Positions 5,172 to 17,544 of a DNA stretch of 64,000 nt are shown piece by piece; position 1 is the stretch's first letter; the number at the start of each line of letters is the position of its first letter. Origin of the DNA: Glutamicibacter creatinolyticus. GTDB taxonomy: Bacteria; Actinomycetota; Actinomycetes; Actinomycetales; Micrococcaceae. The translations under genes and the position numbers were made by a program. Location: contig NZ_CP034412.1 in the NCBI RefSeq assembly GCF_006094275.1, positions 806,001-870,000 on the forward strand, written 5' to 3'. The notes under the pieces are model-generated. The model had not been told where the DNA came from, made no database searches, and saw nothing but the letters and a program-made list of their open reading frames with translations.

Positions 5172-5231
5172 CGGTGCGCGCACCGGCTGCCCCGGCCCGC
5201 CGTGCCGCAGGCACGATGCCCGGGGGTGGGT

Positions 5232-6017
5232 GTGGCCAGTAAGGTTCCGGCGGCGGATAATACGCTGCGGGTGCTCAAGCTGCTGGCCAGCCGCAAGTCC
5301 CCCACCCCGGCCGCGATGATCTGCACGCTGCTGCAGCTGCCGCGCTCCACCGTCTACCAGCTGCTGGGGGTGCTGATCGAGCAGGGGTTCGCCACCCACT
5401 ACCCGGAGGAACAGGCCTATGGCCTGGGGCTGTCCGCCTTTGAGCTCTCCAGCGCCTACACCCGCCAGGAGCCGCTGGCGCGCCTGGGCGCCCCGCTGGT
5501 GGCGCAGCTGGTGGACAAGGTGGGCCAAAGCGCGCACCTGGCGGTGCTGCACGGGGCCGATGTGCTGTACATCGTGGAGGAACGCGCCAAGGGGCGGCCC
5601 TCGCTGGTCACCGATGTGGGGGTGCGCCTGCCCTCGCACCTGACCGCCTCGGGCCGGGCGATCCTGGCCCAGCTGCCCAAATCCCAGGTGCGTGCGCTCT
5701 ACCCGCGCCCGGCCAGCTTCATCAGCCGCAGCCCCAACAGCACCACCATCACCGACTACGCCTCGCTGCGCCGTGAACTGCAGTTCACCGCCGAGCGCGG
5801 GTACGCGGTGGAGCAGGGGGACGTGACCGAGGAGTTCCACTCCCTGGCGGTGGCGATCCTGGACAGCAGCGGCTGGCCAGCCGCCGCCCTGGCGGTCACG
5901 TTCCTGGGCGCGCGGGTGGACCAGGCCCAGCGCGCCGGGATCCTGGAGGACCTGAAGCACACGGCGGACCAGTTCACCGCCCGGCTGCACGGGCGGCGGG
6001 CCACCACCCGGCGGTAG
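5232..6017 (+). CDS. IclR-family transcriptional regulator
   Basis: About 261 residues with an N-terminal winged helix-turn-helix (TLRVLKLLASRKSPTPAAM... LPRSTVYQLLGVL) and a C-terminal IclR effector domain (HLAVLHGADVLYIVEE, LPSHLTASGRAILA, VEQGDVTEEFHSLAVAI). IclR proteins are dimeric, ligand-responsive repressors or activators of catabolic operons. GTG at 5232 (protein VASKVPAADNTLRV) is preferred from family starts; GTG at 5226 and 5202 are in frame. Its position about 100 bases upstream of hutU on the same strand suggests it controls urocanate/histidine degradation, as IclR-type regulators do in some actinobacteria; that is an inference. Confidence 0.85.
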   Translation: MASKVPAADNTLRVLKLLASRKSPTPAAMICTLLQLPRSTVYQLLGVLIEQGFATHYPEEQAYGLGLSAFELSSAYTRQEPLARLGAPLVAQLVDKVGQSAHLAVLHGADVLYIVEERAKGRPSLVTDVGVRLPSHLTASGRAILAQLPKSQVRALYPRPASFISRSPNSTTITDYASLRRELQFTAERGYAVEQGDVTEEFHSLAVAILDSSGWPAAALAVTFLGARVDQAQRAGILEDLKHTADQFTARLHGRRATTRR

Positions 6018-6119: not shown

Positions 6120-7793
<1,674 letters not shown>

Positions 7794-7944: not shown

Positions 7945-8985
7945 GTGCTCCCAGAGGGCGTGCAGACCGTGGTTTTGAACCCCGCCGCACCGGCGGATCC
8001 GTTGGACTGGGAGCCGGCCGGGCAACTGCTCACCGCGGCCGAACACTGCCAGGGCCGCCCCGAACCCCTGCTGCGGGTGCTCAGTGCCCACCCCGGCATC
8101 CCGCCGGTGCCCGGCACCGGAAACACGGCCGGGCTGTGGCAATGGCTGGCCACCATCGCCGCCATTGACCTGGCCGCCGCCCGCACCATCGAACCCCACC
8201 TGGACGCGGCCGCCATCCTGCGCCAGGCCGGGCACGAGTGGCCTGCTGGCAGCACCTGGGGCGTCTACGCGGCCGAGGCACCCCACCAGCTGCTCACCGC
8301 CGAACAGGACGGCGAGGGCACCTGGCAACTGAACGGCACCAAGCCCTGGTGCTCCCTGGCCGGGAACCTGAGCCGGGCCATCGTCAGCGCCCACACCGCG
8401 CAGGGCCGGCGGATCTTTGCCGTGCGGCTAAGCGATGCGGGCGTCGAGGTGCAGCAGGGCACCTGGCACAGCCGCGGACTGGCCCACATCCCCAGCGGCA
8501 GCGTGCACTTCACCGCCGTACCGGCCCAGCCCATCGGCGCCGCCGGGTGGTACCTGGACCGTCCGGGCTTCGCCGTCGGCGCGGTCGGGGTGGCCGCCTG
8601 CTGGTTTGGCGGGGCGGTGGGCCTGTACCGGACGCTGTTCGCCTCCGCCCAGCGCCGCGAACCGGACCAGCTGGCCCTGTCCTGGCTCGGCGAGGGGCAC
8701 CGGCTGCTGCACGGTGCCGGGCTGGCGCTCGCCAACGCGGCCGGGCCCGCCGATGCCCAACGGCTGGACTGGGCGGACGCCCTGACCGTGCGCGGCCACG
8801 TCGCCGCCGTCTGCCAGCGGCTGCTGGCCATGGTCCCCGAGGCCACCGGCCCCGGCCCCCTGGTCGGGGATGACGCGCACGCCCGCCGGGTCGCGGACCT
8901 GGGCATCTACCTGCGCCAGCACCATGGGGCCCGGGATGACGCCGCCCTGGGCGGCAAAGTGCTGCAGGCCGGTGGGCCATGGTGA
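7945..8985 (+). CDS. Acyl-CoA dehydrogenase-like flavoprotein
   Basis: A 346-residue protein with the overall pattern of the acyl-CoA dehydrogenase superfamily: an N-terminal helical part, a middle domain with the substrate/FAD-binding stretch LNGTKPWCSLAGNLSRAIV and a C-terminal helical domain ending DLGIYLRQHHGARDDAALG. It is shorter than classical acyl-CoA dehydrogenases (about 380), and the usual central motifs are diverged, so the substrate is probably not an ordinary fatty acyl-CoA. The GTG start at 7945 follows GAGGTGATCAA. It overlaps the next gene by 7 bases, which indicates one operon and translational coupling. A role in tailoring a glycosylated product is an inference from the neighbours. 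Confidence 0.75.
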   Translation: MLPEGVQTVVLNPAAPADPLDWEPAGQLLTAAEHCQGRPEPLLRVLSAHPGIPPVPGTGNTAGLWQWLATIAAIDLAAARTIEPHLDAAAILRQAGHEWPAGSTWGVYAAEAPHQLLTAEQDGEGTWQLNGTKPWCSLAGNLSRAIVSAHTAQGRRIFAVRLSDAGVEVQQGTWHSRGLAHIPSGSVHFTAVPAQPIGAAGWYLDRPGFAVGAVGVAACWFGGAVGLYRTLFASAQRREPDQLALSWLGEGHRLLHGAGLALANAAGPADAQRLDWADALTVRGHVAAVCQRLLAMVPEATGPGPLVGDDAHARRVADLGIYLRQHHGARDDAALGGKVLQAGGPW

Positions 8986-10352
8986 GCTTCGACCACCGGG
9001 ACGCCGGAACCCCCGCCAGCTCCTGGCGGGCGGCCGGCCGGCAGCGGCTGGGGGAACTGGACGAGCAGGCCCTGCCCGGCGCCGGCGGCACCCTGGTGGT
9101 GCTGGCCGCGCACCCGGATGATGAGACCCTGGGCGCCGGCGGGTTGATCCAGCAGTGCCTGGCCCGCGGCGCCGCGGTGCACGTGCTGGTGTGCAGCGCC
9201 GGAGAAGCCTCCCACCCTGACTCCCCCACCCACCGCCCCAAACAGCTGGCCGCCATCCGCCGCCGGGAAATCGCCGACGCCCTGCGCCAGCTGGATGCCA
9301 CGGCCACCACGCACGGCACCCTGACATGGGACGTGTTGGGGCTGCCCGATGGCCAGCTGGCCGGGCACACCAAGGCCATCACCGACGCCCTGGAGCTGGC
9401 GCTGGCCGGCCCCGCCACGGTGCTGGCCTCCACCTACCGCGGCGACGGGCACATCGACCATGAGACCCTGGGCCGCCTGGCCGCCGAGGCCGCCAGCCGC
9501 CACGGGCTGGCGCTGCTGGAGTTCCCGCTCTGGTACTGGCACTGGGCCGAACCCGACCAGGACTCCCGGTGGCGCCACTGGCGCCGCCTACAGCTGAGCG
9601 AAGCGCAGCAGCAGGCCAAGGCCGCGGCCATGGCCGCCCACCGCTCCCAGGTGGCCCCGCTGTCCGACCAGCCCGGGGACGAGGTGCTGCTCAGCGCCGC
9701 GTTCAGCGCCCACTTCGGCAACGGGACCGAGGTCCTGCGCTACACCCCCGCCAACACGCACTCGGGCAGCGACGCCCCACAGGTCTTCGAACAGCTCTAC
9801 CAGCAGCGCGAAGACCCATGGGACTACCGCACCAGCGGCTATGAACGGCGCAAGCGCCAGGTGCTGCTGGCCAGCCTGGCCCGGGACAGCTACCGCCAGG
9901 CCCTGGAAGTCGGGTGCTCCATCGGGGAGCTGTCCGCCGCGCTCGCCGAACGCAGTCAACGGTTCCTGGGCCTGGATGCCAGCGCCACCGCGGTCACCAC
10001 GGCCCGGGGCCGGCTGGCCCACCTGCCCCACGCCCAGGTGCGTGAGGCGACCGTGCCGCAGCAGTGGCCGACGGAGCAGGACGGCTGGGACCTGGTGGTC
10101 ATCAGCGAAACCGGCTACTTCCTGGCCGCCGATGAACTGGCCGAACTGCTCACCCGCTGTGACCGGCAGATGGCGCCCGACGGGGAACTGGTGCTCTGCC
10201 ACTGGCTGCACCCGATCCAGGGCTGGACGCTGGACGGGGAAACGGTGCACGCCATGGCCCGGGAACTGCAAGGCTGGCATCCGGTGGTCGAACACCGCGA
10301 ACCGGACTTCCTGCTGGAGATCTACCGGCGTAAGGGTGGAACCGATGAATGA
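8979..10352 (+). CDS. PIG-L deacetylase / SAM-dependent methyltransferase fusion
   Basis: A 457-residue two-domain protein. Residues about 35-240 are a PIG-L (LmbE) domain with the zinc-binding AHPDDETLGAGG, the YRGDGHIDH block and a distal His. This family includes MshB and GlcNAc-PI de-N-acetylases, which remove an acetyl group from an N-acetylglucosaminyl substrate. Residues about 265-450 are a class I methyltransferase of the NodS type with the SAM motif LEVGCSIGELSAAL and the acidic residue in FLGLDASATAV. The ATG at 8979 overlaps the upstream gene and the stop overlaps the start of the glycosyltransferase. The fusion implies that deacetylation and methylation act on the same (probably amino-sugar) substrate; this is an inference. 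Confidence 0.85.
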   Translation: MVSFDHRDAGTPASSWRAAGRQRLGELDEQALPGAGGTLVVLAAHPDDETLGAGGLIQQCLARGAAVHVLVCSAGEASHPDSPTHRPKQLAAIRRREIADALRQLDATATTHGTLTWDVLGLPDGQLAGHTKAITDALELALAGPATVLASTYRGDGHIDHETLGRLAAEAASRHGLALLEFPLWYWHWAEPDQDSRWRHWRRLQLSEAQQQAKAAAMAAHRSQVAPLSDQPGDEVLLSAAFSAHFGNGTEVLRYTPANTHSGSDAPQVFEQLYQQREDPWDYRTSGYERRKRQVLLASLARDSYRQALEVGCSIGELSAALAERSQRFLGLDASATAVTTARGRLAHLPHAQVREATVPQQWPTEQDGWDLVVISETGYFLAADELAELLTRCDRQMAPDGELVLCHWLHPIQGWTLDGETVHAMARELQGWHPVVEHREPDFLLEIYRRKGGTDE

Positions 10353-11076
10353 GCCGCTGCGGGCACTGGCCATCGTGATCCCGGTGCACAACGAAGAAGA
10401 ACACCTACCCGCCTGCCTGGCCCACCTGGCGGCCGCCATGGACCGCTTCACCCGGTGCGCGCCGCAGGTGGAACTGCATGCGGTGCTCGTGCTGGACCGC
10501 TGCACCGACCTCTCCGGTCAGCTGGTGCGGGACCGGGTGCGCGCCGATGCCCGCTTCCACGCGCTGCCCGGGAACTTTGGCAGCGTCGGGGCCAGCCGCG
10601 CGGCCGGGGTCCAACGGGCCCTGGAACTTAGCGGCGCCTCCCCGGCGGCTACCTGGGTGGCGTGCAGCGACGCCGACAGCCGGGTGCCGGTCAATTGGCT
10701 GACGGTGCTGCTGCTGGCCGCGGCCCGGGGCGCGGACGCGGTGCTGGGCACCGTGCAACCCGATGAGAAGGAATTGGAACCCCACCGGTACCGGCAGTGG
10801 CGGCAGCACTACCGGCCCGAACCCGGTCACGGGCATGTGCACGGGGCAAACCTGGCGTTCAACGCCGCCCACTACCTGCGCGCCGGCGGATTTGAACCGG
10901 TTACCGCGCATGAGGATGTGGGCCTGGTGCGCCGGCTGCGGGCGGGCGGTGCCCGGCTGCAGGCCACCGCCCAGATCCCGGTGGTCACCTCCGGCCGGCT
11001 GACCGGTCGCCTGCAGGGCGGGTTCGCGGACTATCTGGCGGGCCTGGAATCACGCGCGCTGCTGCTGGGGCGCTAA
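10345..11076 (+). CDS. Family 2 glycosyltransferase (GT-A fold)
   Basis: A 243-residue soluble glycosyltransferase. It begins with the nucleotide-binding IVIPVHNEEEHLPACLAHL, carries a DxD-type metal site in ACSDADSRVPVNWL, and a catalytic/acceptor block HGANLAFNAAHYLRAGGF followed by AHEDVGLVRRL, as in GT2 enzymes. No membrane segment is seen. The ATG at 10345 overlaps the end of the PIG-L/methyltransferase gene by 8 bases; the longer open frame to 9841 runs antiphase inside the upstream gene and is rejected. It is the last gene of the three-gene operon and is followed by an inverted repeat shared with dps. Donor and acceptor are unknown. Confidence 0.85.
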   Translation: MNEPLRALAIVIPVHNEEEHLPACLAHLAAAMDRFTRCAPQVELHAVLVLDRCTDLSGQLVRDRVRADARFHALPGNFGSVGASRAAGVQRALELSGASPAATWVACSDADSRVPVNWLTVLLLAAARGADAVLGTVQPDEKELEPHRYRQWRQHYRPEPGHGHVHGANLAFNAAHYLRAGGFEPVTAHEDVGLVRRLRAGGARLQATAQIPVVTSGRLTGRLQGGFADYLAGLESRALLLGR

Positions 11077-11194: not shown

Positions 11195-11707
11195 TTATGG
11201 CTTGCGGTTTTCGGCGCTGATGAACCAGGCCTGCTGTTCCAGCTGCGCAATGTAGTCATGCAGGATGTCAGCCGAGGTTGGGTCGGCCTCATCAACTGCG
11301 TCATGCACCCGGCGCATGACACCCACCGTGGTCTGCACGGCGTCGACCATCAGGTCCACGGCCTTGGTGGTCAGGATCTCGCCGTTCGTGGGCTGCTCCA
11401 GCTCGGTGTACTTCGACACGGTGCCCACCAGCCCATCCGGGGTGGCGTGCATGGCGCGCATGCGCTCGGCGATTTCATCCGAACCCTTGCGGGCGATGTC
11501 CACGACCTCGTCCAGGTTCAGGTGCAGGTCGCGGAAGTTCGGGCCCACAATGTTCCAGTGCGCCTGCTTGCCCACAAGCTGCAAGTCGATCAGGTTCACC
11601 AGGACGGACTGCAGGGCATCACGCAGCTCCTCGGTGGCGACGAAACCGTTCTCGGCGTTTTCCCGCTTGGTCTTCCCTGCTGGTGTCTTCTTTACGGAAT
11701 CAGACAA
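11195..11707 (-). CDS. dps: Dps family ferritin-like DNA-protection protein
   Basis: A 170-residue four-helix ferritin-like protein that forms dodecamers, oxidises Fe(II) with H2O2 and protects DNA. The ferroxidase ligands of the family are visible: His in GKQAHWNIVG, His and acidic residues in FRDLHLNLDEVVDIA and SDEIAERM. A lysine-rich N-terminal tail (SVKKTPAGKTKRE) is the kind used for DNA contact. The start codon lies behind AAGGGGGAGC. Upstream is an 8-base perfect inverted repeat that could be an operator. It fits the iron theme of the window. A bacterioferritin is excluded by length and the Dps-type helix spacing. Confidence 0.93.
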   Translation of the reverse strand: MSDSVKKTPAGKTKRENAENGFVATEELRDALQSVLVNLIDLQLVGKQAHWNIVGPNFRDLHLNLDEVVDIARKGSDEIAERMRAMHATPDGLVGTVSKYTELEQPTNGEILTTKAVDLMVDAVQTTVGVMRRVHDAVDEADPTSADILHDYIAQLEQQAWFISAENRKP

Positions 11708-13727: not shown

Positions 13728-14866
13728 TTAGGCGAAGGCGGAGATGCCGGTGATCGCCCGGCCCATGATCAGCGCCTGCACCGTTTCGGTGCCCTCATAG
13801 GTGTGCAGCGCCTCCATGTCCGCGAAGTGGCGGGCCACCCGGTTGTCGGTCAGGATGCCGTTGCCGCCCAACAGGTCCCGCGCGTTCGCCGCGATCGAAC
13901 GGGCGGTGCGGGTGGCGGTGTACTTGGCCAGCGAGGCGGCCGGGCCGGTGAGCTTGCCCGCCATTTCGCGGCGGGTGGACTGCACGGCCAGCAGTTGGAT
14001 GGTCGCCAGCTCGGACTGCATGCGCGCCAGTCGCTCCTGCACCACCTGGGAGGCGGCCAGCGGGCGACCGAACTGCACGCGCTGCTTGGCGTAGGCCACC
14101 GCGGATTCATAGCAGGCGGTCGCATGCCCAACCGCCGCCCAGGCCACGCCCAGGCGGGTGGCGAAGAGCACCGCGGCGGTGTCCTTGAAGCTGTTCGCGC
14201 CGGGCAGGACCATCTCATCGGGAACAAACACGTTCTCCAGCCGGATGTGCGCCTGCCAGATGGCGCGCAGCGACAGCTTGTTCTTGATCGTGGTCGCGGT
14301 GTAGCCCGCGGACTGCTGGTCCACCAGCAACCCGCGCACCTTGCCCTCGTCATCACGCGCCCAGACCACGCTGATCCCGCCGACCGAGCCGTTGCCGATC
14401 CACTTCTTCTCGCCGTTGAGCACGTAGCCGCCCTCCACCCGGGTGGCCCGGGTTTCCAGGGACACCGAGTCCGAACCGTGGGTGGGTTCGGTCAGGGCGA
14501 AGGCGCCGGGCAGTTCCCCGCGCAGCATCGGCACGCCGAACTTTTCGATCTGCTCGGGGCTGCCACACTGCAGGATGGAACGCAGTGCCAACCCGGCCTG
14601 CACGCCCACAATGGTGCCCACCGAGCCGTCGCCGCGGTGCAGCTCCATGTTCACCAGCCCGGCGGCCATGGCGCTCATTGGGGGCGTACCCCTTGGGGGT
14701 CTGCCCGTCGCGCAGCAGATCGGCGTCGCCCAGCTTCTTGACCAGGTGCAGCGGGTAGTCGGCGGTCTCCCAGTATTCGTGGGAAGACGCCGGTGGGATC
14801 GATCTCCACGTCGGTGGTCCACAGGTCGTAGTCCGGCTCGGTGACACCGGGGGGGAAGTCGGACAT
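13728..14866 (-). pseudogene. Acyl-CoA dehydrogenase (glutaryl-CoA dehydrogenase-like), frameshifted
   Basis: An FAD-dependent acyl-CoA dehydrogenase. The C-terminal 300 or so residues are in one frame: FALTEPTHGSDSVSLETRA, the FAD/substrate block NGEKKWIGNGSVGG, SLRAIWQAHI, RVQFGRPLAASQVVQERLA and the terminal MEALHTYEGTETVQALIMGR. The last contains the YEGT Glu used as catalytic base in the glutaryl-CoA subgroup. The N-terminal part (from MSDFPPGVTEPDYDLW at 14866) is split by frame changes near 14785 and 14685, and about 35 residues seem to be missing at the first. Without those faults it would be a normal enzyme of amino-acid or fatty-acid degradation. It abuts a TetR fragment at its 5' end. 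Confidence 0.8.
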
Positions 14867-14869
14867 GGG

Positions 14870-15044
14870 TGATGATCATTTCCTGGTCCGCGAAGACCAT
14901 ATTCTCCTTGGAACCGAAACGGCGGAAAAACGTGGAACGGGACATGCCGGCGGCGTTGGCCAGCTCATCGACGCTGGTGGCGTCAAATCCCTGGTCGATC
15001 AGCAGTTCGAGGGCGGCAACGGGCACGGCGGAAGAAGTGATCAT
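14870..15044 (-). pseudogene. TetR-family regulator, N-terminal HTH fragment
   Basis: About 57 residues starting at ATG 15044. They contain a complete TetR-type helix-turn-helix (ALELLIDQGFDATSVDELA then NAAGMSRSTFFRRFGSKENM) and stop making sense at 14870, where the start of the acyl-CoA dehydrogenase begins in the same open frame. The ligand-binding domain of about 130 residues is missing. The gene is divergent from the DoxX-like gene at 15086, which it would be expected to regulate. Read literally, the sequence encodes an HTH-dehydrogenase chimera, which I take to be a deletion junction. Confidence 0.75.
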
Positions 15045-15085
15045 GATTGTTGAATCTAGCATGGAAACGAAAGAAGTGAGGATCG

Positions 15086-15483
15086 ATGGGTATCTCAATT
15101 GCAAATGCCGCACTACGTCTGGTCAGCGGTGCGTACATCCTCAACAGCGGCATCAACAAGCTGCGCCTGGATGAGGAAAGCGCCGCCGGGCTGCAGCAGA
15201 TGGCCTCCAACGGCGTGCCGCAGCTGGGCAACATGGAACCGGCAGCGTTCGGCAAGGCGGTCTCCGCCACCGAGATCTCGCTGGGCTCTGCGCTGCTGCT
15301 GCCACTGGTTCCCTCCCGTCTGGCCGGACTGGGGCTGGCCGGCTTCTCCGGAGTCATGCTCAGCATGTACCTGCGCACCCCGGGGCTGACCGAGTCCGAC
15401 GGCATCCGCCCCACCGCCGAGGGCGGCACCCTGGCCAAGGACGTGTGGCTGGCCGGAATCGCCGTCGCCCTGATCTTCGGGCG
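15086..15483 (+). CDS. DoxX-like small membrane protein, 3' end lost
   Basis: About 132 residues with several hydrophobic segments, beginning MGISIANAALRLVSGAYILN with INKLRLDEESAAG after the first segment; this matches DoxX/SURF4-like actinobacterial membrane proteins of unknown role. The ATG follows GTGAGGATCG. The natural protein should end shortly after VWLAGIAVALIFG; at about 15484 the frame runs without a stop into antisense MFS sequence, so the last few codons and the stop are missing. It is divergent from the TetR fragment with only 41 bases between start codons. Confidence 0.65.
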
Positions 15484-16690
15484 CCGCTCACCGCACCTGC
15501 GCCGAGATGCGCGACTGCATCATCACCGCGATCAGCGCCGAGCCGAGCACCGCACCGATCTGCCGGGTCGTGTTGTACACCCCGGAACCGGCCCCGGCGT
15601 TGGCCGGGCCCAGGTCGCGGGTGGCGGTCAGTGACAGCGACGGCCAGATCATGGCCGAACCCAGCCCCTGCAGCACCGGTGGAAGCAGCAGCACCCACAG
15701 TGGGGTGTCGGCGTGCATCAGGAACGCGTAGCTGACGATGCCCCCGCCGCCCAACAGTGCGAAGCCCGGGATCGCGAACTTGCGCGGGTGCCATCGGTGA
15801 CATCAGCAGCGCCGCCTGGGTGGGGCTCAGTTCGCGCACCGACTGCAGGTAGAAGATCATCGGCAGGCTCAGCGTGGTGATGGCCAGGCCCATGAAGCTG
15901 ATGCCCAGGTTCGCCAGGGAGAAGTTCCGGTCGCGGAAGAGGCCCAGCGGCACCAGCGGTTCCTTGGTGGTGCGCGACTGCCACCAGATGAACGCCGCGA
16001 GCAGCACCAGCCCGGCAATGATCAGGTGCACCGAGCCGATCGGCCCGATGAACGGTTCCCAGTTGGTGGAATCCCCCTCCTGGATGCCGTAGACCAGGGC
16101 GAACATGGCCGCCGCGGAGAGGATCACGCCCAGCGTGTCGAAGGTCGGCGAGTGCGGCTGGAGCTTGGGCACCCAGCGCATCACCAGGATGAAGGTCAGC
16201 ACGCCCACCGGCAGGTTGATGAAGAAGATCCACTCCCAGCCCAGGGTGTCCACCAGCAGCCCGCCGGCGATCGGGCCCACCAGCGAGGCCACCCCGGCCA
16301 CCGCGCCCCACACGCCCATGGCCGCGCCACGGTGACGGTAGGGGAAGAGCCGGGTGATCATCGTCATCGACTGCGGGGACATCATCGCCGCGCCGAAGCC
16401 CTGCACGGCGCGGGCGGCAATCAGCGAGCCGATGCTGGGGGAAAGCCCGCACCAGGCCGAGGCGCCGGTGAACAGCACCAGACCGATCAGGTAGATGTTG
16501 CGCGGGCCGAAGCGGTCGCCCAGGCGCCCGGTAATCAGCAGCGGCACCGCAAAGGTGAGCAGGTAGGCGCTGTTCACCCAGATGATCGCGGTCAAATCCG
16601 CGTGCAGCGCCCCCATGATGGCCGGCATCGCCATGGACACGATCGTGGTGTCCAGCAGGATCATGAAGAAGCCGATGACCAGCGCCCATA
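15484..16690 (-). pseudogene. EmrB/QacA-type MFS drug exporter, both ends and middle disrupted
   Basis: A 14-helix DHA2-type proton-driven exporter. Motif A (GRLGDRFGPRNIYLIG), helix 1 with ILLDTTIVSMAMPAIMG, motif C-like GPIAGGLLVDTLGWEWIFFI and TRQIGAVLGSALIAV are all visible. The first 10-20 residues are missing: at about 16691 the frame runs back into PhzF. About 18 residues are missing at a frame change near 15793 (after LLMSPMAP). The C-terminus is cut at about 15484. About 400 of an expected 480 or so residues remain. It would export drugs or hydrophobic compounds; the substrate cannot be told. Confidence 0.8.
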
Positions 16691-17544
16691 GCGCCCGCCA
16701 TGCGGCCTTCGAAGTCCACGTTGCCGCAGATCCGGGTGACCACATCCCCGCCCACCCAGATGCCGGTGCCGTCGTTTTCCACGTGCAGGATCGCCGAGCG
16801 CCCCACCCGGGTGCCCTGGCGGACGGTGTAGCGCTGCGGGGCCAGGGCCGCCTCGGTCAGCCACTGCCCGAATCCGGCGTTCAGCGAGCCGGTGGCCGGG
16901 TCCTCCTGGATCGCCTCGCTGGGCACGAAGGAGCGGGCCTCGAAGTCGGCCGGAGGCTGCAGCACCACCGAGCCGAAGCGCTCCTCGGAACGGTAGCGGT
17001 CCGAGGCATCCAGCGGGCGCAGCTCCTCGCGGGTGCCGGACACGCGGGGCAGCACGCTGCCGCGCGGCTGCCAGGAACCAAAGGTGACGCTGGAGGAGGT
17101 GTAGGGCCCGATCACCCCCAGCTCCAGGCCCTCCAGGGCGGGGTAGTCCGGTTCGATGGCCAGCACCACGTCCGCATCGCCCAGCAGCATCCGCTCGACG
17201 CGCACCTCGATCAGGCCCGCGGCGCACTGCTGAACCAGGTGTTCGTCGCGGGCCGGCTGCCCGCCGGCCTCCAGCCAGGCCTGGGCGGCACCCAGGGTGG
17301 GGTGCCCGGCGAAGGGCAGCTCCGTGCTGGGGGTGAAGATCCGGATGGAGTAGTCGGCCCCCGGCTCGGTGGGGGCAATGAAGAAAACGGTTTCGGACTG
17401 CTTCATCCACCGGGCGAAGCGCTGCATCGCCTCGGTGTCGAGCTCGTCGGCGTCGAAGACCACGGCCAGCCCGTTGCCGCTGAAGGCGGTGGGCGCGAAC
17501 ACATCAACCTGCTGATAGGCGAAGACGGGGTTCATATATTGCAT
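16691..17544 (-). pseudogene. PhzF-family epimerase/isomerase, 3' end lost
   Basis: A PhzF-fold protein of about 284 residues, nearly complete. The family landmarks are present: FSGNGLAVVFD, the catalytic Glu in KQSETVFFI, FAGHPTLGAAQAWL and EDPATGSLNAGFGQWL. The protein should stop soon after VVTRICGNVDF, but no stop codon is present and the frame continues into the MFS gene. ATG at 17544 (MQYMNPVFAYQQ) or 17535. The upstream AMIN-like gene overlaps its start. PhzF homologues outside phenazine clusters are isomerases of unknown substrate, and nothing here points to phenazine. Confidence 0.8.

Follow-up and report, generated by a model that had tools for sequence, protein, structure and literature searches.

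The window analyzed here, a 64,000-nucleotide stretch of the Glutamicibacter creatinolyticus genome (contig NZ_CP034412.1, positions 806,001 to 870,000), carries three overlapping genes encoding an acyl-CoA dehydrogenase (ACAD)-like protein, a PIG-L-type deacetylase fused to a methyltransferase, and a family 2 glycosyltransferase (GT2). These three genes form a real, conserved unit, and the cassette to which they belong is probably one widespread biosynthetic gene set, apparently uncharacterized, that is found in four or more phyla and is carried in part on plasmids. The features of the locus, in window coordinates, are as follows.

7945..8985, plus strand: ACAD-like gene, 346 amino acids, predicted acyl-CoA-dehydrogenase-fold flavoprotein
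8979-10352, plus strand: PIG-L/methyltransferase fusion gene, 457 amino acids
8979..9764, plus strand: PIG-L-type N-deacetylase domain, about residues 1-262 of the fusion
9765..10352, plus strand: class I S-adenosylmethionine-dependent methyltransferase domain, NodS-like, about residues 263-457 of the fusion
10345..11076, plus strand: GT2 family glycosyltransferase gene, 243 amino acids
8979..8985, plus strand: overlap of genes 1 and 2, 7 bases, ATGGTGA
10345..10352, plus strand: overlap of genes 2 and 3, 8 bases, ATGAATGA
11195..11707, minus strand: neighboring ferritin-like (Dps-type) gene (PF00210, 1.1e-16), context outside the cassette

An earlier note on this DNA had described three genes overlapping by 7-8 bases, and the overlaps are indeed of 7 and 8 bases; its gene identities (a GT2, a deacetylase/methyltransferase fusion, and a diverged ACAD-fold protein) likewise agree with the Pfam matches. 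The fusion matches PIG-L (PF02585; 2.1e-24, 86.9 bits versus a gathering cut-off of 28.2) and, in its methyltransferase part, Methyltransf_25 (1.2e-11) and NodS (2.8e-11). The GT2 matches Glycos_transf_2 (PF00535; 3.8e-11, 43.6 bits versus a cut-off of 23.3), and the match of the ACAD-like protein to Acyl-CoA_dh_M (PF02770; 2e-8, 34.7 bits versus a cut-off of 33.3) is borderline. The ACAD-like gene starts with GTG, with GAGGTG five bases ahead of the start, and the GT2 start was set at 10345 by homologues, the list of open reading frames (ORFs) holding a longer frame (9841-11076). Since the protein lengths match those of homologues, no frameshift is apparent in the three genes. A scan for promoters and terminators at the cassette gave no signal exceeding shuffles.

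Conservation and linkage of the cassette

Each gene was searched for separately in 58 genomes of relatives, the window's own included (fusion at E<=1e-49, ACAD-like at E<=1e-8, GT2 at E<=1e-6). Both the fusion and the GT2 were found in 23 genomes and the ACAD-like gene in 24, and the same 23 genomes carry all three; the genes are thus not scattered in relatives, the outcome that by the earlier note would have refuted its reading. The extra genome, G026, has an ACAD-like gene without partners, which adjoins ferritin-like and multicopper-oxidase genes (locus L063, 5105-9398, minus strand). Within the window's genus, the set is present in 9 of 18 genomes, own included. The GT2 gene is divergent and 2.4 kb distant in G039 and stands first in the set in G040; in G048, the set is divided across contig ends.

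In a wider sample of the phylum (149 genomes), 11 genomes matched at E<=1e-30, including two from the count above. Plasmid records were the basis for judging breadth beyond the phylum. Among 204 matching plasmid records, 37 match at least 80% of the fusion query; most cover less, and many of the sampled rows are NodS or other PIG-L genes. The plasmid loci described here are those opened among the 204, and the following fractions describe this chosen set. By local profiles, all four modules (ACAD-like, deacetylase, methyltransferase, and GT2) lie in one stretch at 54 of the 58 chosen cassette loci, namely, 22 of 23 from relatives (the exception being G048), 13 of 13 from the genome_contigs source, 11 of 13 from plasmids, and 8 of 9 from the phylum sample. 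Left out of this tally are one Cupriavidus locus with the methyltransferase alone (L083) and four nod operons (L075-L078). For the short loci L053-L061, longer versions or duplicates were used instead, and L019 was read on the longer L067. Chance clustering of the three genes is ruled out by the coinciding 23 genomes and the 54 four-module loci.

The chosen loci span Actinomycetota, three classes of Pseudomonadota, Deinococcota, and one cyanobacterium and are not confined to the window's family. Full plasmid loci were found in Kitasatospora, two Acinetobacter, Deinococcus sp. NW-56, Paracoccus, Bradyrhizobium, Pandoraea, Nostoc, Sulfitobacter, Komagataeibacter, and Jiella, while by the same profiles the plasmids of Paraburkholderia and Deinococcus proteolyticus (L081 and L082) have the methyltransferase and GT2 alone; L073 has ACAD and PIG-L alone. 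On the Acinetobacter soli plasmid (L045, 6935-7959), the ACAD-like gene is split between two overlapping frames, whose matches were taken as presence of the gene; it is intact in the closely similar L051 cassette.

Exchange of the deacetylase between unrelated folds

At six loci of the window's phylum (L064, L065, L068, L070, L071, and L072), a NodB-family deacetylase replaces PIG-L. The gene order is the same in all six: NodB, ACAD-like, methyltransferase, pyridine-nucleotide reductase, and GT2, the ACAD-like gene being second here and first in the PIG-L type. By tblastn, these loci match the methyltransferase (6/6) and the ACAD-like protein (5/6), with no match to PIG-L. Their NodB-like proteins all carry PF01522 (2.6e-20 to 3.5e-26), and the reductase domain PF07992 and the glycosyltransferase domain PF00535 are likewise present in every one. 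NodB is the best NCBIfam model for both deacetylases that were run (2.5e-31 and 9.4e-33), and one of the NodB-like proteins is 34% identical to Sinorhizobium NodB. The single reductase run on NCBIfam is closest to the ferredoxin-NAD reductases of aromatic-ring dioxygenases (1.4e-61). The GT2 proteins of this type are longer (510-570 amino acids in 5/6), with the Pfam match confined to the N-terminal half.

PIG-L and NodB are unrelated folds. Because two unrelated deacetylase folds occupy one slot, N-deacetylation appears to be the conserved step, and this exchange provides strong sequence-level evidence that N-deacetylation of an amino-sugar would be the step that matters.

In the PIG-L-type loci, the residues expected of such an enzyme are retained. 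HPDDE and HxDH are the zinc/catalytic motifs of PIG-L enzymes, and both AHPDDE (residues 44-49) and HxDH (158-161) are invariant in 19 aligned fusions; HPDDE occurs in 49/49 PIG-L rows (39 AHPDDE and 10 PHPDDE), and HxDH occurs in 47/47 with window copies excluded. The domain thus belongs to PIG-L/LmbE (PF02585) by both profile cut-off and motifs. In NCBIfam, it resembles MshB/BshB1, BshB2, and Mca, all below cut-off, and scores 37.8 versus the 224 bits of the MshB equivalog (TIGR03445).

The fusion highlighted by the earlier note is real in the window and is best described as a local variant of a four-gene set, because distant loci keep separate genes. After removal of five duplicates (L054, L058, L066, L067, and L069) from 54 rows, PIG-L and methyltransferase share one frame at 37 of 49 distinct loci and are separate, often overlapping genes at the other 12, all more distant. 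Of the fused loci, 36 are the window and its relatives or genome_contigs loci (13 of the latter, mostly Microbacterium of the order Micrococcales). The remaining one, a Jiella row (L080), is doubtful: its status rests on a small PIG-L piece in the methyltransferase frame, the record having two overlapping genes. We know of no PIG-L-type enzyme with such a methyltransferase fusion.

Predicted activities of the other modules

The closest solved relative of the C-terminal domain of the fusion is PDB 4isc (2.2e-39), presumably from Pseudomonas syringae, whose record is titled "Methyltransferase" without a stated function. Among NCBIfam models, NodS scores best with each of the three cassette methyltransferases examined (3e-16, 3.8e-25, and 2.4e-21). 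NodS N-methylates the deacetylated end of Nod-factor precursors, and by analogy, we infer N- rather than O-methylation by the cassette enzyme.

The ACAD-like protein is not readily reconciled with its usual annotation. Across 38 aligned sequences, six residues never vary (H85, K133, S137, R283, G302, and Q325). A control ACAD encoded in the window (13731-15113, minus strand), which has Glu there, served to locate the position of the ACAD catalytic glutamate (H326 in the window protein); this position holds histidine in 30 sequences, aspartate, serine, proline, and alanine in two each, and glutamate in 0/38. The protein therefore combines the fold and middle domain of an ACAD with absence of the catalytic glutamate of the YEGT-type loop. 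Some ACADs place the catalytic base at another position.

Class D flavin monooxygenases have the ACAD fold without ACAD chemistry, and the family profile scores best with DszC (6.7e-18) and TdsC (1.9e-17), with further matches to the amino-sugar nitrososynthase KijD3 (1.2e-15) and to DnmZ (4.8e-10). A single-sequence search of solved structures returned TdsC (8e-7). The alignment to DszC and TdsC takes in part of the N-terminal domain, and S137 pairs with Ser163 in the DszC chain. When Foldseek hits to the AlphaFold2 model are ranked by E-value, TdsC, DszC, and DnmZ fall within the first ten, a steroid ACAD is 11th, and KijD3 is 13th, with about 16-20% identity to the class D monooxygenases and nitrososynthases. 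The best NCBIfam model for the Bradyrhizobium homologue is SfnB (5.3e-12). Taken together, this evidence argues against an ordinary acyl-CoA dehydrogenase and tentatively favors a putative oxygenase or oxidase.

The GT2 protein has the family profile and the DxD motif, with D109, D111 (DxD), E190, and D191 invariant in 26 aligned sequences, and its structural model shows one GT2-type domain (predicted local distance difference test [pLDDT] 83.4). Its nearest NCBIfam models, TIGR04283 and the mycofactocin glycosyltransferase MftF, score 37 and 30.3 bits versus cut-offs of 182 and 280, and a single-sequence search of solved structures gave a weak ArnC match. On a Kitasatospora plasmid (L044, 9391-10815, plus strand), one frame contains both GT2 (PF00535) and ferritin-like (PF00210) domains, possibly as a fusion or an overlapping frame; the record has a separate ferritin-like gene.

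Genomic neighbors and a possible link to stress

By eye and as a raw count, 9 of 12 annotated plasmid loci have stress-type genes in their flanks; the Nostoc record is unannotated and thus outside these 12. The neighbors are catalase and treZ in Paracoccus; catalase, DUF2171, and otsBA in Acinetobacter johnsonii; trehalose-6-phosphate synthase in A. soli; Ku/LigD, RpoH, and a BLUF protein in Bradyrhizobium; CsbD in Pandoraea; catalase in Sulfitobacter and Paraburkholderia; a general stress protein in Komagataeibacter; and spore photoproduct lyase and PRC-barrel proteins in Kitasatospora. At a locus of the window's genus (L066), the neighbors encode a catalase of the KatE type together with BrkB-type and PNPOx-like proteins, and in the window the cassette has the Dps-type gene to one side and a urocanate hydratase gene to the other.

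Acinetobacter baumannii ACICU_02432-02435 are marked as one operon and have the same four gene names, and we equate them with the cassette from gene names, order, and the A. baumannii matches among plasmid records. In PMC5660220 (Table 2), expression of these genes is reduced in two colistin-dependent mutants, by 31- to 45-fold and by 42- to 62-fold, respectively, alongside otsBA and catalase. The Acinetobacter set also adjoins the photoreceptor gene blsA (passages of PMC6240043). A1S_2230, considered as the Acinetobacter ACAD gene, is a DUF2171 gene adjoining it according to passages of PMC6330354, and its expression data were left unused. Neighbors in many loci, not all, together with this one Acinetobacter transcriptome, suggest a role in stress physiology. 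The cassette thus occurs in clinical Acinetobacter isolates and in Deinococcus, often beside catalase and trehalose genes.

A proposed amino-sugar tailoring pathway

We propose that the three genes may act as a single operon whose products tailor an amino-sugar in the cytosol. The GT2 would move an N-acetyl-hexosamine, likely N-acetylglucosamine (GlcNAc) from UDP-GlcNAc, onto a small acceptor; the PIG-L domain would strip the acetyl group; and the fused NodS-like methyltransferase would methylate the freed amine, the fusion perhaps channeling the intermediate. Finally, the ACAD-fold flavoprotein would oxidize the product; flavin-dependent (N-)oxygenase or oxidase chemistry is more likely for it than acyl-CoA dehydrogenation. 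The product would aid survival of drying, oxidation, or stationary phase. We infer the sugar donor, acceptor, oxidation, step order, cytosolic site, and physiological role, and consider this pathway, taken as a whole, to be about evenly balanced between right and wrong. The earlier interpretation is partly supported: sugar transfer, deacetylation, and methylation still offer the best reading, strengthened by the NodB exchange, whereas the protein it called a dehydrogenase no longer has the ACAD base and may act as an oxygenase. A narrower version, in which the product belongs to an undescribed class of small stress metabolites accompanying trehalose and catalase under drying and oxidative stress, namely, an N-methylated and N-oxidized amino-sugar conjugate (N-hydroxy, nitrone, or N-oxide) made by NodC/NodB/NodS-like logic plus a nitrososynthase-like flavoenzyme, is speculative and in our view rather unlikely in that exact form.

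The closest precedent lies in the rhizobial synthesis of Nod factors, which are lipo-chitooligosaccharides. NodC is a GT2-type synthase, and nodB, nodC, and nodS adjoin in the four nod operons, one of whose records has an unnamed methyltransferase in the place of nodS. Like nodC-nodB-nodS, the cassette places a GT2, a predicted GlcNAc N-deacetylase, and a NodS-like methyltransferase in one operon, and six of its loci use a NodB-family deacetylase. Unlike the Nod-factor genes, it has an ACAD-fold flavoprotein, lacks NodA and NodIJ, and mostly uses PIG-L, which is unrelated to NodB. Nod-factor synthesis itself was rejected as an explanation, with no NodA or NodIJ seen in annotated cassette loci. 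Other PIG-L-type enzymes, including PIG-L of glycosylphosphatidylinositol synthesis, diacetylchitobiose deacetylase, and the 2'-N-acetylparomamine deacetylase BtrD, remove acetyl groups from amino-sugars, and the cassette deacetylase shares their type. With DszC/TdsC and the nitrososynthases KijD3, DnmZ, and ORF36, the ACAD-like protein shares its best profile and Foldseek E-values, ACADs being nearly as good and in part ahead of KijD3.

Mycothiol (MshA/MshB) and bacillithiol (BshA/BshB) synthesis also proceed by sugar transfer followed by PIG-L deacetylation. However, MshA and BshA are GT4 enzymes, whereas the cassette glycosyltransferase is a GT2, a cysteine ligase is lacking, and the MshB score falls below its cut-off. 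MshA/MshB, which the earlier note had offered as a precedent, is weaker than NodB/NodS: a better MshB-like gene lies elsewhere in the genome, and NodS is the best named methyltransferase family for all three proteins examined.

Several observations weigh against the proposed pathway. For the methyl and acetyl steps, NodS and NodB equivalog scores are far below their cut-offs (NF041650: 59.7 for the window, 88.7 for L072, and 76.3 for L051 versus 300 bits; TIGR04243: 108.7 and 113.4 for two of the six NodB-like proteins versus 240 bits). A tree of 56 rows groups the four NodS rows in a separate long-branched clade (100/100), with the cassette rows outside; a nesting of NodS among cassette methyltransferases was rejected, as the tree places NodS outside, on a long branch and with weak rooting. 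Because of these scores and this separate clade, N-methylation stands as an analogy. For the oxidation, true dehydrogenases are near-equal in profile (CarC, 2.3e-17, within a factor of four of DszC; 5z8t, 5gj7, and 2dvl, 1-2e-16, all above KijD3), and several ACADs reach Foldseek TM-scores of up to 0.71 versus 0.61-0.67 for monooxygenases. The ACAD-like model is of middling confidence (pLDDT 68.4; predicted TM-score [pTM] 0.74), and NCBIfam has no model for this protein of the window or of L051. The flavoprotein is perhaps not strictly tied to the other modules, because L073, L081, and L082 are incomplete and the ACAD-like gene of G026 stands alone. A fold search with the GT2 returned generic GT2 relatives, with no hint of donor or acceptor. 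Finally, no obvious stress gene was seen at 3 of the 12 annotated plasmid loci (Deinococcus NW-56, Jiella, and D. proteolyticus; L046, L080, and L082), and the gene directly upstream of the cassette in the window encodes urocanate hydratase.

Alternative explanations

The strongest alternative, which we nevertheless judge unlikely, is that the cassette tailors an envelope polymer or glycolipid (capsule, exopolysaccharide, lipopolysaccharide [LPS], or lipid-linked sugar) and not a small soluble molecule. The GT2 profile matches ArnC, DPMS, GtrB, and chondroitin synthase; for one NodB-like protein, most of the solved relatives deacetylate polysaccharides or peptidoglycan; L064 has a long ORF after the GT2 that looks membrane-bound by eye; and a PIG-L gene lies in a P. 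syringae LPS-core locus (passages of PMC8005017). However, a Pfam scan, of which topology prediction was not part, found no membrane or secretion domain in the three window proteins, and no flippase or polymerase recurs at the annotated plasmid loci, where a major facilitator superfamily (MFS) transporter is near in 4/12. The cassette hosts, moreover, have very different envelopes.

That the ACAD-like protein is a true acyl-group dehydrogenase or oxidase, in a cassette making an acylated sugar (lipo-sugar), would fit the fold, the profile matches and TM-scores that ACADs share about equally with monooxygenases, and the acyl-CoA dehydrogenase label given by annotators. It is improbable given that the catalytic glutamate is missing in 38/38 sequences and that no acyltransferase, CoA ligase, or thioesterase recurs at annotated loci, a thioesterase and a GNAT gene appearing solely at Komagataeibacter, some 3-5 kb off. 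We give still less credence to a detoxification unit that would glycosylate, methylate, and oxidize xenobiotics or host compounds. Plasmid occurrence (37 records at the 80% threshold) and patchy presence (9/18 genus genomes) are in its favor, but the deacetylase kept across a fold change suggests a defined biosynthetic intermediate, and the Acinetobacter genes are co-expressed with catalase and trehalose-synthesis genes. A low-molecular-weight thiol or cofactor pathway akin to mycothiol or bacillithiol is very improbable: the PIG-L domain does resemble MshB, BshB1, BshB2, and Mca, and such thiols guard against oxidants, but the same genome has a separate, better MshB-like gene (663720-664580; E 1.7e-55, 189.1 bits, also under the 224-bit cut-off), on which ground a mycothiol-type pathway was rejected, the cassette is without a cysteine ligase, and amine methylation should hinder ligation to cysteine (MshC/BshC chemistry).

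For the amino-sugar tailoring pathway, the parts are of known kinds, and their combination and product look new. Among open-license papers, judged mostly from listings, none was found to treat the gene set as a pathway, in keeping with the earlier note, to which no such characterized pathway was known, and the cassette is undescribed in passages of PMC12029717, PMC8092242, PMC6599016, PMC13130816, PMC10375965, PMC9657202, and PMC6181384. The deacetylase exchange leads to a testable chemical claim (amino-sugar N-deacetylation), and the lost ACAD base leads to another (not beta-oxidation). If the pathway is correct, "acyl-CoA dehydrogenase" annotations in such loci would be misread, and a common stress metabolite would have been overlooked.

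Other observations at the locus

Upstream of the cassette, the window has the urocanate hydratase gene and an IclR-type regulator gene, at 6120-7793 and 5202-6017. The location of the cassette varies between genomes, because this setting differs from that of the same-genus locus L066. Downstream, a single ORF at 13728-15113 (minus strand) has a TetR regulator at its start, followed by an acyl-CoA dehydrogenase whose N-terminal domain is shortened; it looks like a fused remnant or a frameshift. A 608-amino-acid ORF at 15718-17544 (minus strand) has a PhzF match at its start and then, by eye, apparently reads through an MFS transporter gene in the wrong frame, possibly reflecting a frameshift or pseudogene.

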